From Methanobrevibacter sp. (GTDB lineage: Archaea > Methanobacteriota > Methanobacteria > Methanobacteriales > Methanobacteriaceae), in the NCBI RefSeq assembly GCF_030539665.1, contig NZ_JAUNXR010000006.1:1-51543 (forward strand): a stretch of 51,543 bases of DNA, in the 5' to 3' direction. Under the pieces are notes generated by a model. The model was given only the letters and a program-made list of their open reading frames with translations, had not been told where the DNA came from and ran no database searches. A program made the translations under genes and the position numbers. Every line of letters starts with the position of its first letter. Positions within the stretch are counted from its first letter, which is position 1. Positions 130 through 11,705 of this stretch are shown here, one piece after another.

Positions 130-1989
130 TTGATTGAGGTGGATATAATCTATGAAAACGATGAATTGATGGTTATATCCAGAATAGGTGAATGTTCCAA
201 TATGGAAGAAATAAGGAATTATCAGTATCTGTATGATGAAACCAGTATTATTGAGGATTATATAGGTACCGATACAGACAACTATGTTGTTTCCTATAAC
301 GTTGAGGCTCAAAAGTACAGCTGGTCAAATAAGATTTTAGAGTTGCTGGATATTGATAACACTGAGGATTTTTCAAACAGAAATCTTATCAAAGAGTTTA
401 TTGTAAAAGAGGATTTGTTAAAAGTAAGGGAGCTCTATAAGGAGATAACTCCTGAAAATCCCGTTATCGATTATGATTTTAGAATTTTAACCCAAAAAAA
501 TAATTTGAAATATATTCATTGCAATCTTTTCGCTATTTACGACAACAATGATTATCTGAAGAAGGTATTTTATTTCTTTACTGATAAGACTGAAAATAAG
601 ATCATTAAAGACAATCTTAACATTTTAACTGAAAATTTGGAGATTTTGGAAAGGTCAAGCAGGTCAGCATTCTACTATAAGAATGCTAACGGCAAATATC
701 AGTGGTCCTCCAATATATGCAATATCGTTGACTGTCCCAACAGGGAGGCAATTCACAACAAGGATATTATCAATGAGCTTGTACTTGAAGAGGACAGGGA
801 AATTTTGGAGAAATTCATTGATTCATTGAGTATTGAATCTCCTACTGCAAACTTCAAAATCAGAATCATTTCTCGTTTGGGGATTTTAAAATACCTTAAC
901 ATATTTATAAAGAACGTATATGATAGTGAAGGCAATTTTGAATATAGAAATATGCAGGTTTATGATGTTAGTGACATGGAGAATATCCAAACCGATTTAA
1001 GCAATCTAATCAACACTTTTAATTCCGTTGATTATAATCTTAAAACAGGATTGATCTATGAGAATTATGCAGGTAAGCTTAAAGTAAGTAAAATGTTTAA
1101 CCACGTTATAGGGGTTTATAGAAACTGGAGTTCCGGTGGTAGGGAACAGTTTATCGAGAATTTAATCAATAAAAACACCTATTTAAGCTATTATGAAAAG
1201 TTCATGGATTATGAACTTGATCAGATTCATTTATTGTTGTACTATAAATTCGATGGCTATGACGACGATATTAGAATTTTTGAATATTTCCTGAAACGTA
1301 AGAACAATACTATTAGCGGTTATATCAGGGATATTTCAACTATTAAGGACACTGAAATGGAACTTAAGATTTTGAATAACCAGAAATCCATGCTTATTAA
1401 GGAGATTCACCATCGTGTTAAAAACAATCTCCAGGTTTTAAGCAGTCTATTGAATCTTGAAGAGAGGTTTTATGAGGATGCTCCAAACGAGATTATTGAT
1501 GCAACTAAAAAGAGAATCAAATCAATGGCTTTAATCCATGAACTGACTTATAATTCTCATATTTTAGAAACTGTAAACATTAAAAAGTATTTTGATATTT
1601 ATGATGAGGAGATGGGCTTTGTTTATGATGACAATCATATTAAGATGAAGAATGATATTTCTGAGGACATTAATTTCAGTACAGAAATTATGACTCCCTT
1701 GGTCCTTATTATTAATGAATTCATGTCTAACTCCATTAAATATGCATTCAACGATGAAAATGACAATGATGAGAACATCATATCCAAATCCATTAGAATA
1801 GAGGATGGCAATTGTATTGTCGAATATAAGGATAATGGTGTTGGTCTTCCTGAGGATTATGATATTTACCATTCCAATGGTCTTGGTTGGACCATTATCA
1901 TTTCATTGATTAGTCAGTTGGACGGTACTTTGGAGGAAATTGAAAGTGATGGAATTGGATTTAGATTTACATTTCCAATTAACAGGTAA
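130..1989 (+). CDS. PAS / HisKA_2 sensor histidine kinase, 5' end disrupted
   Basis: This is a cytoplasmic two-component histidine kinase that should autophosphorylate on a histidine and pass phosphate to a receiver, probably the one encoded 11 bases downstream. PAS-like sensor modules fill the first ~400 residues. The H-box HHRVKNNLQ lies near residue 427, followed by the HisKA_2 helix pair and a HATPase_c domain (N-box NEFMSNSIKYAF near residue 530, then GVGLP and GLGWTII). No transmembrane segment is visible. The only available start is TTG at 130, but the frame is open back to position 19 and that stretch still resembles the paralogue at 2353-4590 (for example KKVYETHEDVNL against REAYETGKKVNL). 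An in-frame TAA at 16-18 interrupts it. The gene is therefore either 5'-truncated or broken by a stop or frameshift near the window edge. The kinase call is firm; the start is not. Confidence 0.85.
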   Translation: MIEVDIIYENDELMVISRIGECSNMEEIRNYQYLYDETSIIEDYIGTDTDNYVVSYNVEAQKYSWSNKILELLDIDNTEDFSNRNLIKEFIVKEDLLKVRELYKEITPENPVIDYDFRILTQKNNLKYIHCNLFAIYDNNDYLKKVFYFFTDKTENKIIKDNLNILTENLEILERSSRSAFYYKNANGKYQWSSNICNIVDCPNREAIHNKDIINELVLEEDREILEKFIDSLSIESPTANFKIRIISRLGILKYLNIFIKNVYDSEGNFEYRNMQVYDVSDMENIQTDLSNLINTFNSVDYNLKTGLIYENYAGKLKVSKMFNHVIGVYRNWSSGGREQFIENLINKNTYLSYYEKFMDYELDQIHLLLYYKFDGYDDDIRIFEYFLKRKNNTISGYIRDISTIKDTEMELKILNNQKSMLIKEIHHRVKNNLQVLSSLLNLEERFYEDAPNEIIDATKKRIKSMALIHELTYNSHILETVNIKKYFDIYDEEMGFVYDDNHIKMKNDISEDINFSTEIMTPLVLIINEFMSNSIKYAFNDENDNDENIISKSIRIEDGNCIVEYKDNGVGLPEDYDIYHSNGLGWTIIISLISQLDGTLEEIESDGIGFRFTFPINR

Positions 1990-2000
1990 GGTGTGTTTAA

Positions 2001-2342
2001 ATGAATATATTAGTTGTGGAAGATGAATTGATAATTCAATTGGATATTAAGATAGAACTTGAAGACAACGGTTTTGTAGTATTTACTGCAGATAGGGGTG
2101 ACGATGCTATTGACATTGTCGAAAATAATGATATCGATTGTGTTTTAATGGACATTAACATAAAAGGAAACAAGAATGGTATTGAAACAGCCAACATAAT
2201 AAGGGATAACTATGACATTCCAATCATATTCAGTACTGCAAACAATGACTTACTGAATCGTGAGGAATTCCCTTATGTTATTACCAAGCCATTCAATATA
2301 AACGAAATCAAAAACATCATTGAGGAAGTTAAAAACTTATAA
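2001..2342 (+). CDS. Stand-alone response-regulator receiver (CheY-like)
   Basis: This 113-residue protein is a single receiver domain with no output domain. The N-terminal acidic pair (VEDEL), the phospho-acceptor aspartate in VLMDINIKG (about residue 51), the switch threonine in FSTAN and the lysine in ITKPF are all present. It starts 11 bases after the upstream kinase gene and ends 10 bases before a second, paralogous kinase, so all are probably cotranscribed. Lacking an effector domain, it must act by protein contact or as a phosphorelay intermediate. Its likely partner is the upstream HisKA_2 kinase; a possible target is the receiver-glycosyltransferase fusion at 5013-9197. Family call is secure; partners are inferred from position. 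Confidence 0.92.
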   Translation: MNILVVEDELIIQLDIKIELEDNGFVVFTADRGDDAIDIVENNDIDCVLMDINIKGNKNGIETANIIRDNYDIPIIFSTANNDLLNREEFPYVITKPFNINEIKNIIEEVKNL

Positions 2343-2352
2343 GTGACTTAAT

Positions 2353-4590
2353 ATGCAAGTAAAAGAATTAGAAAAAGGAAAAATTGTCGTAGAAGATTAC
2401 GATTCATTAAATTTTTACAGAAATTCTGATAAGGTTAAGGAATCCAAACCTCTTAACAACCCGTTACTTATTAGTGCAATGAATGTTGATGTTGATGTTA
2501 TAGAACCGGTTAACAATGGAAAAGAGTTTTTAGTTAAACATATCAGTGAAATAAACAAAAATCTGACCTATAAGTACACCAATCTGAACTTTAAGGATAG
2601 GTATTATGGAGATATTTTTCCCGATTTTAAGGATGTCGTTTATCCTTACATGAGAGAGGCCTATGAGACTGGAAAAAAGGTTAATTTAAAGTTTTATTTT
2701 TATAAAAACAACATGTTGAAATTCATTATCGATTCCGTTTTATTATATGAAAACGGAGAGATCCTATTTTTACATTCCAACATAACACCTACTGAAGATA
2801 CTTTAGATTTTGATTTTGATTACTTTGATGAGGATCATATTATTGACTATTACATTAAAAGCATTAATAATAAAGAATCTTTGGTGATTATTGAAAATAA
2901 GAAAAATAACACATTCAATGTTCCTGATGAAGTATACTCCTTGTTTGAATTAAAAAAAGACGATTATTCTGATTTTAAAAGTTTAGTAAAAGATTTGCTG
3001 TTTGAAAACGACATTTCATATTTGATCGATAAAACAAAAAGCATAACTGTTAACAATTCGCAGGCCACATTGAACTTCAAAGTATTGACACCAAAACATG
3101 AGGTGAAAACCTTTAGATGCTTCATTTTCGGTCTTTTTGATAAAAATGAGGAACTGGAAAACATATTCTATTTTGTAAAGGACATCACAGATTATGATTT
3201 GACTGCCGCAAGTCTGAAGGAACTGAACAACAACCTTCATGCAATTCAAACCCTGAGCAGGGGAGCTATCTATTACTTCAACATTCATGGGGAATATATG
3301 TGGACATCCAACATTAGAAACATCGTTGAATCATCCACATTTAACTATAAGTCAGATTACAACATCATTGAAGACCTTGTTCTTGAAGAGGATCGTGAAA
3401 TATATGAGGAGGCTTTCAATTCCCTGAACAAGCTAAACCCTCTCCAAAACTTCAAAGTTAGAATCAAGACCATGAAAGGCAATATTAAGGACATCAATAT
3501 CATTCTTAAAAATATCTACGACGGCAACAATGAAATTATTAGCAGTTCCATGCAAGTATATGACATTACAAAGGGAACTGTCGAAAGCAATTACATAAGG
3601 CTCATAAATGCGTTCAATGCAGTTTCATCCCATTTGAAAACCGCAGTCATCTATGGAAACGGAAAAGGAAAGTTCAAGCCAAGCAATGTGATTGAAGACA
3701 TTTTAGGAATTCCTGCCGCCGAATGGTCTGAAAGCGGAAGAAAGATATTTATTGAAAACCTTGTTGACAGCTCAAAGCTTGAAAGGGAAATTGAAAGATT
3801 GACCAATCATGAAACAGACGAGGTTAATTTACTTTTGAAATATAAGTTTAATGGAGACCCCAACAATATTAAGATAATCAGATATTATCTTTTCAGAGAC
3901 GACAACAACGATATATCAGGATATGTTGAGGACATTACCGAAGTTAAGGAATATGAAAAGCATCTTAAAAGATTAAATCAGGAAAAGTCCATTCTATTAA
4001 AAGAAGTTCATCACAGGGTTAAAAACAATCTTCAGGTTTTAAGCAGCCTATTGAATCTTGAAGAGAGGTTTTACAAAAATGAGCCTGAAGAGATCTTAAA
4101 ATCCACCAAAAAGAGATTGAAGTCAATTGCTCTGGTTCATGAGATGACATATGGAAATATGGATATGGAATCGGTCAATCTTAAGGATTATTTTGAGATT
4201 TTTGATAAGGATGTATATGGAATATACTCTGATGAGCATTTCATAATCAAAAATGAGATAGATGACATTGACATTTCATCAAATAAGGTTACACCGCTGA
4301 TTTTGATAATTAACGAATTCGTTTCAAATTCAATTAAATATGCATTTGATTATGAAAACAATGGAAAAGCCAACATAATTAGAAAAACAATAAAATGTGA
4401 TGGGGACACCTGTATTGTTGAGTATGGGGATAATGGTAAAGGTCTTCCAGAAGGATTTGACATTAACAGATCAGGAGGACTGGGATGGACAATTATCAAT
4501 TCATTCGTAAAACAATTGGATGGTGAAATTGAACAGCTCCCTGGTGAAGGAACTAATTTCAGAATTAAATTCCCGATAAATGGTGATTAG
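2353..4590 (+). CDS. PAS / HisKA_2 sensor histidine kinase (paralogue of the first gene)
   Basis: This 745-residue histidine kinase is a full-length relative of the interrupted gene at 130-1989. Several PAS-like units occupy roughly residues 60-540. The H-box HHRVKNNLQVL lies near residue 553, and the HATPase domain has N-box NEFVSNSIKYAF, GKGLPEGFD and GLGWTIIN. No transmembrane helix is apparent, so it probably senses a cytoplasmic signal. The TAG stop at 4588-4590 is followed directly by the ATG of the next receiver gene, which indicates strict cotranscription and probably translational coupling. The near identity of the H-box regions of both kinases (for example LQVLSSLLNLEERFY) points to a gene duplication that included the receiver. 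The signal sensed cannot be told from sequence. Confidence 0.92.
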   Translation: MQVKELEKGKIVVEDYDSLNFYRNSDKVKESKPLNNPLLISAMNVDVDVIEPVNNGKEFLVKHISEINKNLTYKYTNLNFKDRYYGDIFPDFKDVVYPYMREAYETGKKVNLKFYFYKNNMLKFIIDSVLLYENGEILFLHSNITPTEDTLDFDFDYFDEDHIIDYYIKSINNKESLVIIENKKNNTFNVPDEVYSLFELKKDDYSDFKSLVKDLLFENDISYLIDKTKSITVNNSQATLNFKVLTPKHEVKTFRCFIFGLFDKNEELENIFYFVKDITDYDLTAASLKELNNNLHAIQTLSRGAIYYFNIHGEYMWTSNIRNIVESSTFNYKSDYNIIEDLVLEEDREIYEEAFNSLNKLNPLQNFKVRIKTMKGNIKDINIILKNIYDGNNEIISSSMQVYDITKGTVESNYIRLINAFNAVSSHLKTAVIYGNGKGKFKPSNVIEDILGIPAAEWSESGRKIFIENLVDSSKLEREIERLTNHETDEVNLLLKYKFNGDPNNIKIIRYYLFRDDNNDISGYVEDITEVKEYEKHLKRLNQEKSILLKEVHHRVKNNLQVLSSLLNLEERFYKNEPEEILKSTKKRLKSIALVHEMTYGNMDMESVNLKDYFEIFDKDVYGIYSDEHFIIKNEIDDIDISSNKVTPLILIINEFVSNSIKYAFDYENNGKANIIRKTIKCDGDTCIVEYGDNGKGLPEGFDINRSGGLGWTIINSFVKQLDGEIEQLPGEGTNFRIKFPINGD

Positions 4591-5004
4591 ATGGCAAATA
4601 AAGTTCTTATTGTAGAAGATGAAGCAATTACTGCATTAGATTTAAAATTAAGTTTAGAAGAATTGGGTTATGAGGTTGTGGACACTGTTGACAATGGTCA
4701 TGATGCTGTTACAGTAGCCGTTGAGGAAAGGCCTGATGTGGTTCTTATGGATATCAACCTTAAGGGGGACATGACAGGTATCGAAGCTGCAGCACAGATA
4801 ATCAAGTTTTCCATTCCAATTATCTATTTGACTGCAAACACAGATGATGAAACTTTCTTTGAAGCAAATGAGGAAGGGACATATGGTTATCTTACAAAAC
4901 CTTATAATATAATAAAGCTCAAAAATATAATTAAGTTAACCATACACCGTTCTAAAATTGATGCGCAGAAAGTTAATCTAGCACATGGATTCATTAAAAA
5001 GTAA
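4591..5004 (+). CDS. Stand-alone response-regulator receiver
   Basis: This 137-residue protein is a receiver domain plus a short C-terminal extension (about residues 120-137). The acidic pocket (VEDEAI), phospho-acceptor Asp in VLMDINLKG, switch Thr in YLTAN and lysine in YLTKPY are complete. The ATG follows the kinase stop codon with no spacer, so the two are a cognate pair by position. No DNA-binding domain follows the receiver. The next gene, nine bases on, carries its own receiver-like module fused to a glycosyltransferase, so the pair may feed phosphate or a protein-contact signal into surface glycan synthesis. Family certain; target inferred. Confidence 0.92.
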   Translation: MANKVLIVEDEAITALDLKLSLEELGYEVVDTVDNGHDAVTVAVEERPDVVLMDINLKGDMTGIEAAAQIIKFSIPIIYLTANTDDETFFEANEEGTYGYLTKPYNIIKLKNIIKLTIHRSKIDAQKVNLAHGFIKK

Positions 5005-5012
5005 GATTGAAA

Positions 5013-8000
5013 ATGAGTAATGAGGATATCTACAGTAAATTAGATTCAATTATCAACAAATCTAAAAAAGAATCAAAATCAGATTCATACAAGGGCAAGG
5101 ATTTAAATTCAAAGCTAGATTACATAATCGAAAAATCCAGGACAAGGGATGAAGCAAAAGAGCAAGAAAGTCCTGAATACGCAAGGGTTGAATTAAAAAC
5201 AGACAACGTTGTCTCAGATTACAGTTCGGATTTCAGTAACCTGAATTCCAGGCTGGACGATGTCCTGTTGAAGATAGAGGATTCCGCACCAAGCTATGAC
5301 GGGGAAATAGGTGCGATTCATTCAAAGATTGATAGCATTGCATCATTGTTGAATGACGAATCAAAGCTAAATGAAATTTCAGACAAGCTTGATGACAGAA
5401 ATGATTTGCATGCTCTTGAATCAAAGTTAAATGATATTATCGTTAAGCTTAACAGACCTGAAAACAACTTCAAGCAGGAAAGGATTGACGATACGAACAT
5501 TGAGGAGTTCCACTCAAAGCTTGACAAGATTAACACTATTGTTAAGAAGAACCATAACAGGGCTGCAATTTCAGACATCAATTCAAAACTTGACAGCATT
5601 ATCAAGACACTGGAGGACGATTCTAAAATCGATGACATTTCAGACAAGATCGACAGCTTCCAGCATGAATCCAAGATTGACATCATCAATGATAAGCTGG
5701 ATTATCTTTTTACAGCATTTAAGGAATTTTCCAACATTGACAATATTCATGAGTTCAATTCAATAAAAAAGCAATTCAACGACATACTGGCTGATTTTGA
5801 TAACTTGAAGTTGGATGAAATCAATTCCAACCTCAATTCCATAATTTCCAGCCTTGACGATATACCTAAAACCACTTCCAAGCTGGAAACAATAAATGAT
5901 ACGTTGGTTCATAAAAAGGATTTGAATAAGATTCATACCAAACTGGACAACATAAAATCCAAAGAGACAGAAACCAAGGTCAATGACATCCTTGACATAT
6001 TGAACAAGAGCAATTCAGACATTGATTCCAAGCTGGATGAAATTATCCTCTCAGTCAAAAATGATGACTATCTAAAGGAAATCAATTCAAAGCTAGATGA
6101 GATTAAGGCAGATTCAGGCATTGAAAAAATAGATTCCAAGCTTGACGATGCGATGGATTTAATAGGCAATAATCGTAGACTCAACAATCTTGACGTTAAA
6201 GTCGATAAGGTATTGGCTGAGATAAGCGAAAAACCTAAGGAAATAGATTTCGACAAGATAGATGAGATATTGGCCAAAATGGAAAACAATGCACAGATTG
6301 AAGACGTTGATTCCAAGGTTGATGATGTTCTAACAATCTTGAATGACGACTCCAAGCTAAGCGAAATCTCATCCAAGCTTGACAATTCATTTGACTTTGA
6401 CAATATCAACAGCAAATTGGAAGAGATATTGAAGGAGACCTTGAACCATCAGGATTTCGAAACAATAATTTCCAAACTAAATTCAGTGATGGAGGCTGTG
6501 GATGAGGCCAATTCCATAAATCACGATTCAAGGATAGATGGGGATAAGCTAAAGCACTTCAATTCAAAACTGGACAACATCCTTTTGGCAGTCAAGAAGG
6601 AATCAAGAGAAATCGATTTGGACGAATTGGAAAAAATAGAATCCAGATTGGATGATTTGGTTTTAAAATTAGGTGAAATTGCCAAGAATCAGGTTTCCAA
6701 TGAGAGATTTGATGTTCTTGAGAACAAGCTTGACAATGTTGTTTCAAACGAAAGGATTGATGTTCTTGAGAACAAGCTTGACAATGTTGTTTCAAACGAA
6801 AGGATTGATGTTCTAGAAACCAAACTTGATGAGATAGCCTCTAATCTAGCAAATGTCGGAAAGGAGCCTGTTAGCGATACACTTACAATTAACAGACTCA
6901 ATGAATTGGAGTCCAAGATTGACATGGTCATCAGCATAGTCGGTGATGACGTCGACCTTGTAAGTGCCAGTGAAGTTGAAACCAAGTTTACAGACATAGA
7001 ATCCAAAATAGACGACATTATACTTAACCTGACCGACAATACCACTGATCTTGATATTGATGGAAAACTGAGAATAATCTCCCACAAGCTAAGCGAATCA
7101 ATCAAGGAAGAGGAAAGTGAAGAGGATTCTGAAGGTGAGATTGAAGAGAAATCCCTTAATGATGACAAGGAAAAGATAGATGACGATTTCGGATTTGATC
7201 CCGAGTCATTTGAATCTGAAATCATTTCCGCAATGGAAAAGAACAGGCCAGACATTGTAAAGGATGAAGGGGGAGAAACCGAAAAGGCCGAAGAGTCTAA
7301 GGAAGTCACCAAGGTCGAAGCCGAGATAGTGGAAGAGCCTTTGAAGGATGAAGAGGAAGAACCTGCAGAGGACGATACAGCCCTAATCGAAGACATTGCA
7401 AGGTCAGAATATACAGTTAAGGAGAAAAGATACAATTTTGATGTAAGTTCCCTTAAGGGAAAGGAAATATCTCCTTTGATTTTGCTTTTAACAAATAATG
7501 ATGAAGATGAGGAAAGGCTGAACAGGATAATGGATGAGATGGGTGCCGATGTGGTCAATTTCAGCGAAGAAAGCAAGGCATCCGACTATATCAAGAACAA
7601 TGACGTTGATTTGATATTGCTTGACATAGATTCCGACGTTGACGTAACCACTTTCTTGGATGAGATTGTTCTCTTTAACATTCCGACACTTCTTATCGTT
7701 GATCTCAATAAGGACATTCCTGATGAGCTGTTTAACTATTCATACAACTTCATCTTCAAGCCTTTCACCAATATGGAAGTGGAACAGACAATCTATGTTG
7801 TTTTGATTGAACATACGAAGAATCACCAGCTTATTCTGGATGCCAAAAGCAATATTGACGAGAAGAACCAGGAACTGATTATCGAGAAGGTTGAATCATT
7901 CCTCCTTCTGTTCCTTTCAGTTACCTTGATTGTTACAGGAATAGTCACATTCAACATAACATTCCTGCAGTGGATCATATTCATCCCATCCGTTCTTATG

Positions 8001-9197
8001 CTAATCATTGCATTTGTAAGTCTCAAGAAGATTAAGGAGCCTGAACCGTTTGAAGAGCCTCCATTCGTAAGCATCATCATTCCTGCACACAATGAAGAGT
8101 ATTCAATCGAAGGAACCGTTCGCTGCATCGGAGACATCGACTATACACACAACGGCAAAAAGAACTTCGAGCTTATTGTGTGCAACGACGGTTCAACCGA
8201 CAGGACAGGTGAGATTCTTAAAGGATTGAAGGATGAAATTGACGTTTTAAGAATCGTTACAAGAAAGCCACCTCAATCCGGTAAGGGTAAGGGTTTTGTA
8301 CTGAACGACGCTTTCAATCTCTCCAAAGGAGAAATCATCGGTGTATTTGATGCGGATACAAGGGTTCATCCAGATTTCCTGGACAAGATCGTCCCTTACT
8401 TGAACGACCCTACAGTGGAAGGTGTTCAGTCAAGGGTAAAAATGTTCAACAAGGACGAGAACTTCGTTACCAGAATGCAGCATGTTGAATTCAGCTGCTT
8501 TGCAAATACATTGAGGGCTCGTGACATTATGGGCTTCAACGGTTTCCTTGGAGGTAACGGACAGTTCGTTAAAAGGCAGACCATTGAGGATGTAGGAAAA
8601 TGGGACGGTTTTGCAGTTACTGAGGATTTGAACCTAAGTATCAAGATGCTGATTGAAGGAAAGAGAATCAGGTTCTGTGGTGAGGCTGCAATCTATCAGG
8701 AAGCTGTAAATACCTGGAAGGCCCTTTTCAAGCAGAGGACCAGATGGGCATCCGGTAACTTTGAAGCTCTCTTCATTTACACTCCTGTGATTTTAAGGTC
8801 AAAGATATCTCCGCTGAAAAAACTGGGAATCATCGACCACATTTCATTTTATGCATTTAACCTGTTCATTTTCACAGGATTCGTCATATTCATAGTTAAC
8901 ATAATAGCATGGTTCGTATTACATCAGCCAACATTCATAAGAATGGATGCGCCGTTAATAATCGGTTTGATTTCTGCATTTGCATTCTTCCCGCCGCTTA
9001 TCATTTCATTGACAAGGGACAAGACAAATGTGATTTCATTCATAAAGGATCTTATAGGCTATTGGATGTACTGCTATCACTTGATTCCGCTGTTCTTCAA
9101 GACAATGTACAGCATGTTTACAAGAAAGGAAAGAACCTGGGACAAGACCGAGCACAAGATAAGCGAATGCGATCCTGACATTCTATTGGAGGAATAG
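5013..9197 (+). CDS. SKLD-repeat / receiver-like / membrane GT2 glycosyltransferase fusion
   Basis: This 1394-residue protein has three parts. Residues ~1-690 are dozens of short degenerate units around SKLDxI, predicted helical or coiled-coil, followed by an acidic linker (~695-800). Residues ~816-936 look like a receiver, with candidate phospho-acceptor in LLLDIDSD and lysine in FIFKPF. Two membrane helices (~958-1005) precede a processive GT2 domain like bacterial cellulose or poly-GlcNAc synthases: VSIIIPAHNEE, CNDGSTDRTG, DADT (DxD), TEDLNLS and QRTRWASGN are all present, and several membrane helices close the protein. ATG 5013 is preferred to TTG 5007 as the normal start. The likely role is transfer of a nucleotide-sugar to a growing glycan at the inner face of the membrane, under direct receiver control, possibly clustered by the coiled coil. 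The product is unknown. Confidence 0.88.
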   Translation: MSNEDIYSKLDSIINKSKKESKSDSYKGKDLNSKLDYIIEKSRTRDEAKEQESPEYARVELKTDNVVSDYSSDFSNLNSRLDDVLLKIEDSAPSYDGEIGAIHSKIDSIASLLNDESKLNEISDKLDDRNDLHALESKLNDIIVKLNRPENNFKQERIDDTNIEEFHSKLDKINTIVKKNHNRAAISDINSKLDSIIKTLEDDSKIDDISDKIDSFQHESKIDIINDKLDYLFTAFKEFSNIDNIHEFNSIKKQFNDILADFDNLKLDEINSNLNSIISSLDDIPKTTSKLETINDTLVHKKDLNKIHTKLDNIKSKETETKVNDILDILNKSNSDIDSKLDEIILSVKNDDYLKEINSKLDEIKADSGIEKIDSKLDDAMDLIGNNRRLNNLDVKVDKVLAEISEKPKEIDFDKIDEILAKMENNAQIEDVDSKVDDVLTILNDDSKLSEISSKLDNSFDFDNINSKLEEILKETLNHQDFETIISKLNSVMEAVDEANSINHDSRIDGDKLKHFNSKLDNILLAVKKESREIDLDELEKIESRLDDLVLKLGEIAKNQVSNERFDVLENKLDNVVSNERIDVLENKLDNVVSNERIDVLETKLDEIASNLANVGKEPVSDTLTINRLNELESKIDMVISIVGDDVDLVSASEVETKFTDIESKIDDIILNLTDNTTDLDIDGKLRIISHKLSESIKEEESEEDSEGEIEEKSLNDDKEKIDDDFGFDPESFESEIISAMEKNRPDIVKDEGGETEKAEESKEVTKVEAEIVEEPLKDEEEEPAEDDTALIEDIARSEYTVKEKRYNFDVSSLKGKEISPLILLLTNNDEDEERLNRIMDEMGADVVNFSEESKASDYIKNNDVDLILLDIDSDVDVTTFLDEIVLFNIPTLLIVDLNKDIPDELFNYSYNFIFKPFTNMEVEQTIYVVLIEHTKNHQLILDAKSNIDEKNQELIIEKVESFLLLFLSVTLIVTGIVTFNITFLQWIIFIPSVLMLIIAFVSLKKIKEPEPFEEPPFVSIIIPAHNEEYSIEGTVRCIGDIDYTHNGKKNFELIVCNDGSTDRTGEILKGLKDEIDVLRIVTRKPPQSGKGKGFVLNDAFNLSKGEIIGVFDADTRVHPDFLDKIVPYLNDPTVEGVQSRVKMFNKDENFVTRMQHVEFSCFANTLRARDIMGFNGFLGGNGQFVKRQTIEDVGKWDGFAVTEDLNLSIKMLIEGKRIRFCGEAAIYQEAVNTWKALFKQRTRWASGNFEALFIYTPVILRSKISPLKKLGIIDHISFYAFNLFIFTGFVIFIVNIIAWFVLHQPTFIRMDAPLIIGLISAFAFFPPLIISLTRDKTNVISFIKDLIGYWMYCYHLIPLFFKTMYSMFTRKERTWDKTEHKISECDPDILLEE
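6693..6836 (+). repeat. 48-bp in-frame tandem repeat, three units
   Basis: Three consecutive 48-base units each encode a 16-residue unit of the form VSNERIDVLENKLDNV. Units one and two are nearly identical in DNA; the third has diverged at its 3' end (ETKLDEIA). This recently expanded block sits inside the much longer degenerate SKLD repeat region, suggesting that the length of the coiled-coil part changes by slippage or unequal recombination. Confidence 0.9.
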
Positions 9198-9208
9198 GAG
9201 GTTGTACT

Positions 9209-9823
9209 ATAAAGAATAAGGATAAGTTAATCATGGTGGTTGTTGTCATTGGAGTAATATATGTTGCAGCCAATATGGGAGCAATCAACAGCTTTTTATC
9301 ATTGCACTTTGACAAGACAAAGGAAGATGGCCATACGAGGATTATAGTTCCTGAGGCCTGGAATCTGACTGAGGAGTTCAACATGTCAAATTCAAGGTCT
9401 AACCTGTCTTTCACAAACAATTACGTTATTGTGGACGTTTGGGAGGATTGGCCCGAAAACAAGATAACTTCAATTTCTGAAAATCGTTTCAGGACCATGG
9501 AATCGGGCAATTACAAGATATTGAACAAGTCTCTTGTTGACTATGGGGGAAACAACATCTCCAAGGAGATATACAGCAACCCTACATTGGATACAGATAC
9601 CCATTGGCAGCATATTGGAGTAAACTACGTATTTGAAAGGGAAGACACAAACTATGCAATGCAGATACATCACTTCTCCACAATAGACTATCACAACGAG
9701 TCATATATGAGGGAAGTTGAGGACAGGTCCCTTGACCTTATTACAAACATTCACAACAAGGACTACAACGGCTTCTTCTCAATGATAAACCATGGTTTGG
9801 AAGCCTTTGGAATTAAGCTGTAA
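9209..9823 (+). CDS. Membrane-anchored extracellular protein with an apparent ATA start
   Basis: This protein of about 204 residues has a short charged N-terminus, one hydrophobic helix (MVVVVIGVIYVAANMG) and an ectodomain with several N-glycosylation-type sequons. I recognise no family. A strong ribosome site GGAGGT at 9197-9202 is followed after six bases by ATA at 9209, then AAG AAT AAG GAT AAG, which gives the classic positive N-terminus before a signal anchor. The first ATG (9233) lies inside the hydrophobic run and has only a weak site. I therefore place the start at ATA 9209, with 9233 as the conservative alternative. It lies between the glycosyltransferase and the acetyltransferase and probably works with them on the outer face of the membrane. 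Confidence 0.7.
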   Translation: MKNKDKLIMVVVVIGVIYVAANMGAINSFLSLHFDKTKEDGHTRIIVPEAWNLTEEFNMSNSRSNLSFTNNYVIVDVWEDWPENKITSISENRFRTMESGNYKILNKSLVDYGGNNISKEIYSNPTLDTDTHWQHIGVNYVFEREDTNYAMQIHHFSTIDYHNESYMREVEDRSLDLITNIHNKDYNGFFSMINHGLEAFGIKL

Positions 9824-9832
9824 GGTGATAAC

Positions 9833-10414
9833 ATGAAATATGATGATGAAGAACTGATATTAGGGCCGCTGAGCGATTTGGGCCTTCCATCTGATGATGA
9901 CTGGCAAAGGACCAGCGAACTTGTTTACGAACTGAACCACACGCCGCCGTCACAAAAGGAAAGGATTGCAGCGATAATCGATGAGCTTTTCGGAGAGTTC
10001 GGAGAGGACTCCCAAATACTTCTCCCGGTTTCATGCAATCTCGGATATAACATAAAAATAGGAAAAGGCGTTTTTATCAATGTTGATGCGGTATTTCTGG
10101 ACCCTGACGTGATTGAAATAGGTGACTATACCATGTTCGGTCCGGGAGTCCATGTATATACAGCTAATCATCCGGTAAGGACAGATGACAGGATAGTGAT
10201 GGGGGAAGACGGCAAATATACCTTTACCAATTTTACACGTCCAGTAAAGATAGGCCGCAAATGCTGGATTGGTGGACGTTCCACAATTCTACCTGGAGTT
10301 ACCATAGGGAACAATGTGGTTATTGGAACAGGAAGCCTGGTGAACAAGGACATTCCGGACAATTCAATTGCTGTGGGATCACCTGCAAGAATCATTGGAA
10401 GAACTGACGAGTAG
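9833..10414 (+). CDS. Hexapeptide-repeat O-acetyltransferase (maltose/NodL type)
   Basis: This 193-residue protein is a left-handed beta-helix acyltransferase of the Maa/LacA/NodL group, which transfers acetyl from acetyl-CoA to a sugar hydroxyl. Hexapeptide repeats are clear (NIKIGKGVFINVD, VKIGRKCWIGG, VTIGNNVVIGTGSLV). The catalytic histidine is in TANHP, and the C-terminus has the usual VGSPARII. It starts after GGTGATAAC, nine bases past the preceding gene, and closes the + strand signalling/glycosyltransferase run. By context it probably acetylates the surface polysaccharide or a precursor. Enzyme class confident; substrate inferred. Confidence 0.9.
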   Translation: MKYDDEELILGPLSDLGLPSDDDWQRTSELVYELNHTPPSQKERIAAIIDELFGEFGEDSQILLPVSCNLGYNIKIGKGVFINVDAVFLDPDVIEIGDYTMFGPGVHVYTANHPVRTDDRIVMGEDGKYTFTNFTRPVKIGRKCWIGGRSTILPGVTIGNNVVIGTGSLVNKDIPDNSIAVGSPARIIGRTDE

Positions 10415-10443: not shown

Positions 10444-10719
10444 ATGAAAGTGCTGATAATTTTCAATGTCAAGTTCAAGAAAGATATTTCCAAACTCAAA
10501 AAACTATTGGATTATAATGCTTTCAGGCAAATTAATTCAACTACTTACATTGGTGAACTATCAAATAATGAGTTGGAAATATTAAGAAATGAAATCAAAC
10601 AAAATTTCAATGAAAACGATACCATTATAGTAACACCAATTTGTAAAAATTGCATTGATAAGGTTGAAATCATTGGCCAAAACATAGAATTTGATGAGGA
10701 GCAATATAAAATACTATGA
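10444..10719 (+). CDS. cas2: CRISPR-associated protein Cas2 (atypical first strand)
   Basis: This 91-residue protein has the Cas2 ferredoxin-like pattern: a first strand LIIFNVK, a helix with paired lysines, a middle strand with STTYIGEL, and a third strand DTIIVTPICKNC. In most Cas2 proteins an aspartate (YDI) follows the first strand; here the position reads FNV, so the metal-binding Asp seems to be missing, which matters little for its structural role with Cas1. Its stop overlaps the cas1 start by four bases (ATGA). No effector or array lies in the window. The strongest support for Cas2 is the coupling to a clear Cas1. Confidence 0.8.
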   Translation: MKVLIIFNVKFKKDISKLKKLLDYNAFRQINSTTYIGELSNNELEILRNEIKQNFNENDTIIVTPICKNCIDKVEIIGQNIEFDEEQYKIL

Positions 10720-11705
10720 AATTAATAATTGACGGATATGGAAAAACAATCCATAAAAAAGACAATCAGATATTGATTAAACAAAAAGGCGAAGAAATAT
10801 ATAGGATAAGTGCAAGGAAAGTCACAGACATTACAATATCTGGAAAGGGAAAAATATCATTCGACGCAATATCCCTTATATCAAAAAAAGACATTCCAGT
10901 AATCGGAATCAACTACTTCGGTCAAATCGAATATATAATAACATCTCCAAATGGAGACATCACATTAAAGAAAGAACAGTACAAATGTAGCGATAATCAG
11001 AAGGGAGCCATATTGGCTAAAAAGTTTATTCTGTCAAAACTCAAAAATCAAAAAGCCACATTAAGGACCCTAAACAAAAATAAAAAAATTCCAAAAGTTA
11101 AAGAAAAGGAGTATGCAATCAACAGATCAATTAAGGACTTGGAGAAACTAAAGTTGGAAGATTCAAACATAAAAAATAAGATAATGGGAATTGAAGGAAA
11201 ATCCTCAGCCGAATATTGGAATGCAATATCATTAATCCTTCCAGAAAAAATCAATTTCAAAAACAGAAATCAAAAACCGATAAATGATGTAGTGAATTCC
11301 GCTCTAAATTATGGATATGCAATATTGGCCTCACAGATAACTCAAAGCATTATTAGAAAAAGACTGGATCCCTATTGTGGATTTTTACATGCCGATAGAA
11401 ATAGAAGAGCAAGCCTAACTTTTGATATAATAGAAGAATTTAGACAACAAATAGTCGACAAAACCGTTTTAAAACTTGTCAATAAAGGTAAATTAACTGA
11501 AAACCAAATTGATAAAAGAAACAATGCATTAAATTTAGAAACTAGGAAATTACTGGCCGGCAATATATTAGATAAATTATATTCAAATATCCATTATGAC
11601 AATAGAAAATTGAATTATTTGGAAATAATAGATATTCAAGTAGAAAACATTGTAAAATTTTTATTATATGGAATTGAATTTGACGCTTTTTATTTGGGAT
11701 GGTGA
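10716..11705 (+). CDS. cas1: CRISPR-associated integrase Cas1
   Basis: This 329-residue protein is Cas1, the metal-dependent integrase that with Cas2 inserts new spacers. It has the N-terminal beta domain (MKLIIDGYGKTI, VTDITISGKGKIS, DIPVIGINYFGQ) and the helical catalytic domain, with glutamate in GKSSAEYWNAIS and histidine/acidic residues in CGFLHADRNRRASLTFDIIEEFR. Length and motifs agree with Cas1 of type I/III systems. The order cas2-cas1, the lack of cas3, cas4, cas6 or Cascade genes and the absence of a repeat-spacer array make it an orphan adaptation module here. Immediately downstream lie dispersed ~35-bp repeats separated by gene-sized segments. Confidence 0.95.
   Translation: MKLIIDGYGKTIHKKDNQILIKQKGEEIYRISARKVTDITISGKGKISFDAISLISKKDIPVIGINYFGQIEYIITSPNGDITLKKEQYKCSDNQKGAILAKKFILSKLKNQKATLRTLNKNKKIPKVKEKEYAINRSIKDLEKLKLEDSNIKNKIMGIEGKSSAEYWNAISLILPEKINFKNRNQKPINDVVNSALNYGYAILASQITQSIIRKRLDPYCGFLHADRNRRASLTFDIIEEFRQQIVDKTVLKLVNKGKLTENQIDKRNNALNLETRKLLAGNILDKLYSNIHYDNRKLNYLEIIDIQVENIVKFLLYGIEFDAFYLGW

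Follow-up and report, generated by a model that had tools for sequence, protein, structure and literature searches.

Operon structure and gene content

The window analyzed here is a stretch of 51,543 nucleotides (nt) from Methanobrevibacter sp. (positions 1 to 51,543 of contig NZ_JAUNXR010000006.1, forward strand), whose genome amounts to 1.62 Mb and is 95% complete. It contains an operon in which two histidine kinases (HK1 and HK2) and two free response-regulator receivers (RR1 and RR2) are followed by a membrane glycosyltransferase of family 2 (GT2) with a receiver-like domain in the same chain, and by a small partner gene (Table 1). We suggest that a receiver pair once carried by this synthase was split into a free phospho-receiver, RR2, and a pseudo-receiver retained on the enzyme, and that phosphorylated RR2 may act on the synthase by docking on the latter.

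Profile matches bear out the two HisKA_2 kinases and two free receivers that an earlier note, made from the DNA sequence alone, had placed in one operon with the synthase. Translations of both kinases contain the HHRVKNNLQ motif with the phospho-acceptor His and a DNG motif, and no transmembrane (TM) segment is predicted in either. Five receiver active-site residues were scored, namely the acid pair, Asp57, Thr/Ser87 and Lys109. This set is intact in RR1 (E-D-D-T-K), relatives of which occur as free receivers in loci L041 and L047, and canonical in all 19 copies of RR2 checked. The gene order HK-HK-RR2-GT-orf is conserved across the relatives' loci. The AlphaFold2 model of the partner protein has a predicted local distance difference test (pLDDT) score of 81 and its best Foldseek matches are PsbP (3.4e-05) and DcrB (1.1e-03); the PsbP/DcrB-like domain probably sits outside the membrane.

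The synthase open reading frame (ORF) is on the plus strand, is open throughout, and encodes 1,396 aa from the TTG at 5007 or 1,394 aa from the ATG at 5013, ending at 9197. From the N to the C terminus the protein consists of an SKLD-motif region of about 690 residues, an acidic linker, the receiver-like domain, TM helices, the GT2 domain (PF13641, 1.2e-28; PF13632, 9.6e-27) and a C-terminal membrane bundle. The ND, DxD, TED and QxxRW motifs (NDGS at nt 8184, DAD at 8349, TED at 8619, QRTRW at 8733, with GGNGQ at 8550), together with membrane helices predicted on both sides of the GT domain, assign it to the processive GT2 enzymes (BcsA/HAS/PgaC-like), and the GT part is structurally nearest to cellulose and hyaluronan synthases. 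The score for the PgaC/IcaA equivalog, 135.9 bits, is below the NCBIfam cut-off of 422.3, so that this narrower assignment does not apply. The earlier description of a GT2 enzyme with all catalytic motifs, preceded in the chain by a receiver-like domain and some 690 SKLD residues, is thus accurate.

Table 1. Features of the operon in the window
Feature	Position (nt)	Strand	Description
HK1	130..1989	+	619 aa, PAS-HisKA_2-HATPase sensor kinase, soluble; HisKA_2 4.6e-19, HATPase_c 3.6e-07, PAS_3 3.8e-09
RR1	2001..2342	+	113 aa, free single-domain receiver; PF00072 5e-18
HK2	2353..4590	+	745 aa, PAS-HisKA_2-HATPase sensor kinase, soluble; HisKA_2 1.2e-19, HATPase_c 3.5e-09
RR2	4591..5004	+	137 aa, free receiver, E-D-D-T-K intact; PF00072 1.1e-23
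SKLD-motif region	5013..7076	+	about 690 residues, of amphipathic helical or coiled-coil-like character; seen in this genome only (66 congeners searched)
DNA tandem repeat in SKLD region	6709..6829	+	period 48 bp, 2.5 copies; sole true DNA tandem repeat there
Acidic linker	7077..7466	+	ends in I-A-x-x-E-Y, like the REC1-REC2 linker of tandem relatives
Pseudo-receiver domain	7467..7820	+	REC fold; Asp57 (nt 7623) and Lys109 (nt 7758) equivalents kept; acid pair replaced by T-N, Thr87 by V
Predicted 60-residue helix	7770..7949	+	receiver alpha5 continuous via linker into TM1; AlphaFold2 helix 123-182 of fragment
Membrane GT2 synthase, processive type	7950..9197	+	N-terminal TM helix (the second), then the catalytic domain (ND, DAD, TED, QxxRW) and a C-terminal TM bundle
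Partner orf	9233..9823	+	one N-terminal TM helix and PsbP/DcrB-like domain; conserved neighbor of GT gene

Probable origin of RR2 from a tandem protein

The family was searched in 139 genomes and the wider group in 152, and 40 loci were read; matches in G104 and G105 (30-32% identity) were left out of the counts as not the same protein. The fusion, which the earlier note proposed to look for in other Methanobacteriales, is present in three families of the order (f1-f3) and was itself already published by 2018 (PMC5847659). Beyond these families the 'phylum'-level search of 152 genomes gave no match at 1e-40, and the single match in a further contig scan was one distant bacterial GT.

The relatives are of two architectures. 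Tandem proteins carry two receivers and the GT2 domain in one chain (REC-REC-GT2) and are found in loci L066-L068, L070-L075 and L077; they also occur in genera other than that of the window and in f2 and f3, which serve as outgroup families. In the split type, which includes the window, the RR2 gene lies directly upstream of a chain with a single receiver-like domain. RR2 directly precedes the GT gene in 27 of 27 loci, with a gap of 6-34 nt in 24 of them. In the GT tree the 15 split-type GT domains all fall into a single clade (95/91) nested among the tandem ones, so that the tandem architecture is most simply the ancestral one. Both receivers of the outgroup tandem proteins have intact active-site residues and, judged from these families, the ancestral form is a REC-REC-GT2 protein with intact receivers.

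The C-terminal tail of RR2 (HRSKIDAQKVNLAHGF in the window) resembles that of REC1 in tandem proteins from the same genus and a sister genus (NRQSVESEKVNEARGI, NRSKIEAEKIDLARGL) and differs from the tails of REC2 and of the other free receivers. In addition, the inter-receiver linker motif I-A-x-x-E-Y is kept N-terminally in several split-type chains, including that of the window (compared in L040, L041, L044, L047, L066 and L072). The most likely identity of RR2 is thus REC1, once the first receiver in the chain of a REC-REC-GT2 protein.

Some congeners, namely G080 (L068), G045 and G086, have both architectures in one genome; G080 has an RR2 gene and the accompanying kinase genes next to its tandem locus, in the reverse orientation. 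A 200-aa HisKA_2-like protein is conserved next to tandem loci (L066, 3396-3998; L067, 11081-11683; L068, 3154-3774). It has the His motif NHRLNNDLQ and no recognizable HATPase domain, and we take it to resemble phosphotransferases of the ChpT/Spo0B type.

The receiver retained on the synthase

The fused domain scores 19.7 bits with Pfam Response_reg, under the cut-off of 30.2, and hhalign relates it to the canonical receivers of the family with a probability of 93.8% (E 1.7e-07). AlphaFold2 modeling, one of the checks listed in the earlier note, yields the alternating beta-alpha topology of a receiver with pLDDT of about 80-90; the receiver-like domain is real and very divergent. Among the split-type fused receivers, the acid pair and Thr/Ser87 are conserved in none of 26, Asp57 in 22 of 26, and Lys109 in 18 of 26; at the Asp57 site Ser is found in four relatives, and Lys109 is missing from eight. 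The domain in the window reads T-N-D-V-K at the five sites, which is not the set of a phosphorylatable receiver. The nine fused receivers adjoining the GT domain in L066-L068 and L072-L077 are all intact. By the definition in PMC12632262, under which any one of the five residues is missing, the fused domain is a pseudo-receiver. A separate, independent and partial decay was observed in an unsplit tandem protein (L070, 8761-11142; L071, 8768-11149), the REC2 of which is without Asp57 and Thr87, REC1 keeping the Asp.

All loci that were read retain the pseudo-receiver domain. Helix alpha5 is its most conserved helix in the split-type proteins (0.73 versus 0.51-0.56 for the others) and the least conserved receiver helix in the tandem proteins, a contrast that is suggestive only, the taxon sampling being different in the two sets. 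In the AlphaFold2 model alpha5 runs unbroken into TM1, which would offer an obvious route from docking to the synthase.

Receivers and kinases in related genomes

Two receivers (RR1 and RR2) and two HisKA_2 domains (HK1 and HK2) were found in the window genome, and no others; a third HATPase, considered as a candidate kinase, is TopoVI-B. Among 67 congeners, receivers occur in 33 of 33 with the synthase versus 2 of 34 without it, and in 33 and none, respectively, after contaminants are removed. The two congeners with a receiver and no synthase (G068, locus L095; G076, locus L096) have it on bacterial-looking contigs that encode GGDEF-type proteins and bacterial-looking metabolic genes, which were taken as contamination. 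Outside the genus, receivers are present in 15 of 15 genomes with the synthase versus 4 of 57 without, and their number reaches 26 in some genera. Because no receivers or kinases were found outside the operon and, contaminants aside, the receivers of the genus occur only with the synthase, the latter is likely the sole output of the pathway. The pathway would end in an enzyme, not in a transcription factor, and is the only recognizable two-component pathway of this organism.

A few genomes, among them the single-contig G037 and G149, have a broken synthase gene, and the system is therefore dispensable. The two-frame synthases lie at 8582-10352 of L078 (G037) and at G149:C1:492752-494433, and in G037 the break coincides with seven consecutive A; either phase variation or an error of sequencing may lie behind the broken genes.

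SKLD region and downstream genes

The SKLD region has 26 [SN][KR][LIV][DEN] motifs versus 1.6 expected, the maximum in 1,000 shuffles being 6, and a hydrophobic periodicity at 3.5 residues of 0.47 versus 0.22 +/- 0.04 in shuffles. The motif spacing is irregular (7-69, frequently 13, 16 or 20). Of the 'heptad-like' units described previously, the helical periodicity remains, and a regular repeat unit does not. The 48-bp tandem repeat is recent at the DNA level. The region has no match in 66 other congeners and no PDB or Pfam relative above threshold; matches to NPV_P10 and matrilin were rejected as sub-threshold coiled-coil resemblance. In the nearest sibling, G060, whose GT segment is 80% identical, the corresponding stretch is covered by an assembly gap of 4,059 N, and the apparent RR2-synthase fusion there (L058, a 1,491-aa ORF) is an artefact of this gap. 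As the region has no match among these congeners and the nearest sibling is gapped there, it does not belong to the core of the system; from these comparisons it is a local elaboration. The earlier note likened it to chemoreceptor or polar-organizer arrays, and no homolog was found that would tie it to such a scaffold. Perhaps the region serves in clustering or tethering, which is a guess.

The operon is followed in the window by a gene for a maltose/galactoside O-acetyltransferase-like hexapeptide protein (9833-10414), no homolog of which turned up next to the synthase in any other locus that was read, and, directly downstream of it, by the cas2 and cas1 genes (10444-11705).

Proposed control of the synthase

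We propose that HK1 and HK2 would sense cytoplasmic cues and pass phosphate to the free receivers, chiefly to RR2, as its intact chemistry and synteny suggest. Phosphorylated RR2 would then dock on the pseudo-receiver of the synthase, and the signal could pass along alpha5 into the first membrane helix. The activity or assembly of the GT2 enzyme would change, and a surface glycan would be made together with the PsbP-like partner on the outer face. What is observed is the domain architecture, the lost catalytic residues, the split gene order and the lack of further receivers or kinases among those detected; the docking, the direction of control and the kind of glycan are inferred, and we give the scheme a probability of roughly 0.6. 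A broader version is more tentative and falls somewhat short of even odds: here the split of the tandem enzyme would have made RR2 a mobile phospho-carrier and left a dead docking pseudo-receiver, the whole kinase repertoire would be directed to one glycan synthase, and the SKLD scaffold would cluster the synthase. The earlier note had envisaged direct phospho-control of polysaccharide synthesis by this operon. Its control of a polysaccharide-type synthase agrees with the conservation of the operon, which holds the only kinase and receiver set found in the genome; the chemistry, however, lies on RR2 and not on the fused domain.

Several observations weigh against the docking scheme. The receiver tree does not resolve the RR2 clade as sister to REC1, and their orthology is argued from the tail and synteny. 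There was in essence a single split and a single decay, so that no more than one or two events underlie their correlation; similarly, the genomes in the co-occurrence counts are not phylogenetically independent, and p-values for these counts only describe the table. The domain in the window still has Asp57 and Lys109, and the scheme does not account for RR1. With the genome 95% complete, a missed receiver or kinase gene is possible. Further HisKA_2 kinases of about 620-640 aa, one or two per genome, are encoded elsewhere in many congeners, and in most of these no free receiver other than RR2 was found, which suggests that several kinases feed one receiver.

The fused domain could instead be phosphorylated by the kinases and switch the synthase directly, as the earlier note supposed, and relatives with intact fused receivers probably work so. 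The Asp57 and Lys109 equivalents of the window would fit this. Nevertheless, phosphorylation is unlikely because the Mg-binding acid pair and Thr87 are lost in 26 of 26 relatives, and ordinary Mg-dependent phosphotransfer is not expected without the acid pair; the intact phospho-acceptors are the free receivers. The Asp/Lys pair, on whose conservation in homologs the earlier proposal was staked, is eroded by the Ser substitutions and the missing Lys109, which tells largely, though not entirely, against that proposal. We consider direct switching improbable.

Somewhat less improbable, though still unlikely, is that RR1 and RR2 act on another target, or that RR2 is a phosphate sink, the pseudo-receiver being a structural remnant on a synthase without phospho-control. 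Single-domain receivers are able to bind many targets, and the pseudo-receiver is less conserved in sequence than the GT domain. Another target or a sink is at odds with the restriction of receivers in the genus to genomes with the synthase and with the invariable position of RR2 directly upstream of it, and a remnant is at odds with the retention of the domain and the conservation of alpha5. The pseudo-receiver might also sense a nucleotide or other ligand, with RR2 acting in parallel, as the ShkA pseudo-receiver binds cyclic di-GMP (c-di-GMP; PMC7010744). No ligand signature was found in the pseudo-receiver, however, and its origin from a tandem receiver pair favors a receiver as partner, so that we see little chance of this. 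Docking of RR2 on the pseudo-receiver is the reading that we prefer.

Comparison with known systems

If the docking scheme is true, two-component signaling in this archaeon would end in a surface-glycan enzyme and not in transcription. A 2025 review (PMC12632262) describes the switching of pseudo-receivers as a mystery, with no functional study of an archaeal one known, and considers that a receiver and a pseudo-receiver might form heterodimers in a phosphorylation-dependent way. Here a candidate partner of a pseudo-receiver can be named from evolution, as the receiver formerly adjacent in the same chain. Congeners without the operon have no receivers, contaminants aside, so that little cross-talk is expected, and the relatives with intact tandem receivers are built-in controls.

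REC-BcsA and REC-REC-BcsA proteins are listed in Methanobacteriaceae by Galperin et al. (2018; PMC5847659). The window protein belongs to this class, having a PF13641-type GT2 domain and an N-terminal receiver in one chain, the latter homologous though below the Pfam cut-off. It shares with the MTH_548 type the archaeal family and a homologous GT2 domain, linker and receiver, with one or two receivers on PF13641. The separate RR2, the decay to a pseudo-receiver, the conserved two-kinase operon, the PsbP-like partner and the SKLD extension go undescribed in the available passages of that paper.

With BcsA, hyaluronan synthase and PgaC/IcaA the enzyme shares the processive-type GT2 fold and motifs, control by a receiver being proposed here instead of c-di-GMP. 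A precedent comes from Myxococcus xanthus, where the single-domain receiver EpsW, when phosphorylated, interacts with EpsZ, a glycan-initiating enzyme, and activates it (PMC12802240). There a single-domain phospho-receiver controls a membrane enzyme of a glycan pathway post-translationally via direct contact, as RR2 would here. EpsZ, however, is a phosphoglycosyl transferase for which the abstract of that paper names no receiver-like docking domain, the kinase system is another one, and the two are not homologous as systems.

Like the bacterial pseudo-receivers of FrzS, ShkA and CmrT (PMC12632262), the fused domain has the receiver fold without one or more of the five active-site residues. Unlike them, it is archaeal, is carried by an enzyme, and has a former tandem partner identifiable as the adjacent free receiver. 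While the fusion itself is known, the apparent novelty of this system is the split of a receiver pair into a phospho-receiver and a pseudo-receiver with a single enzymatic output.

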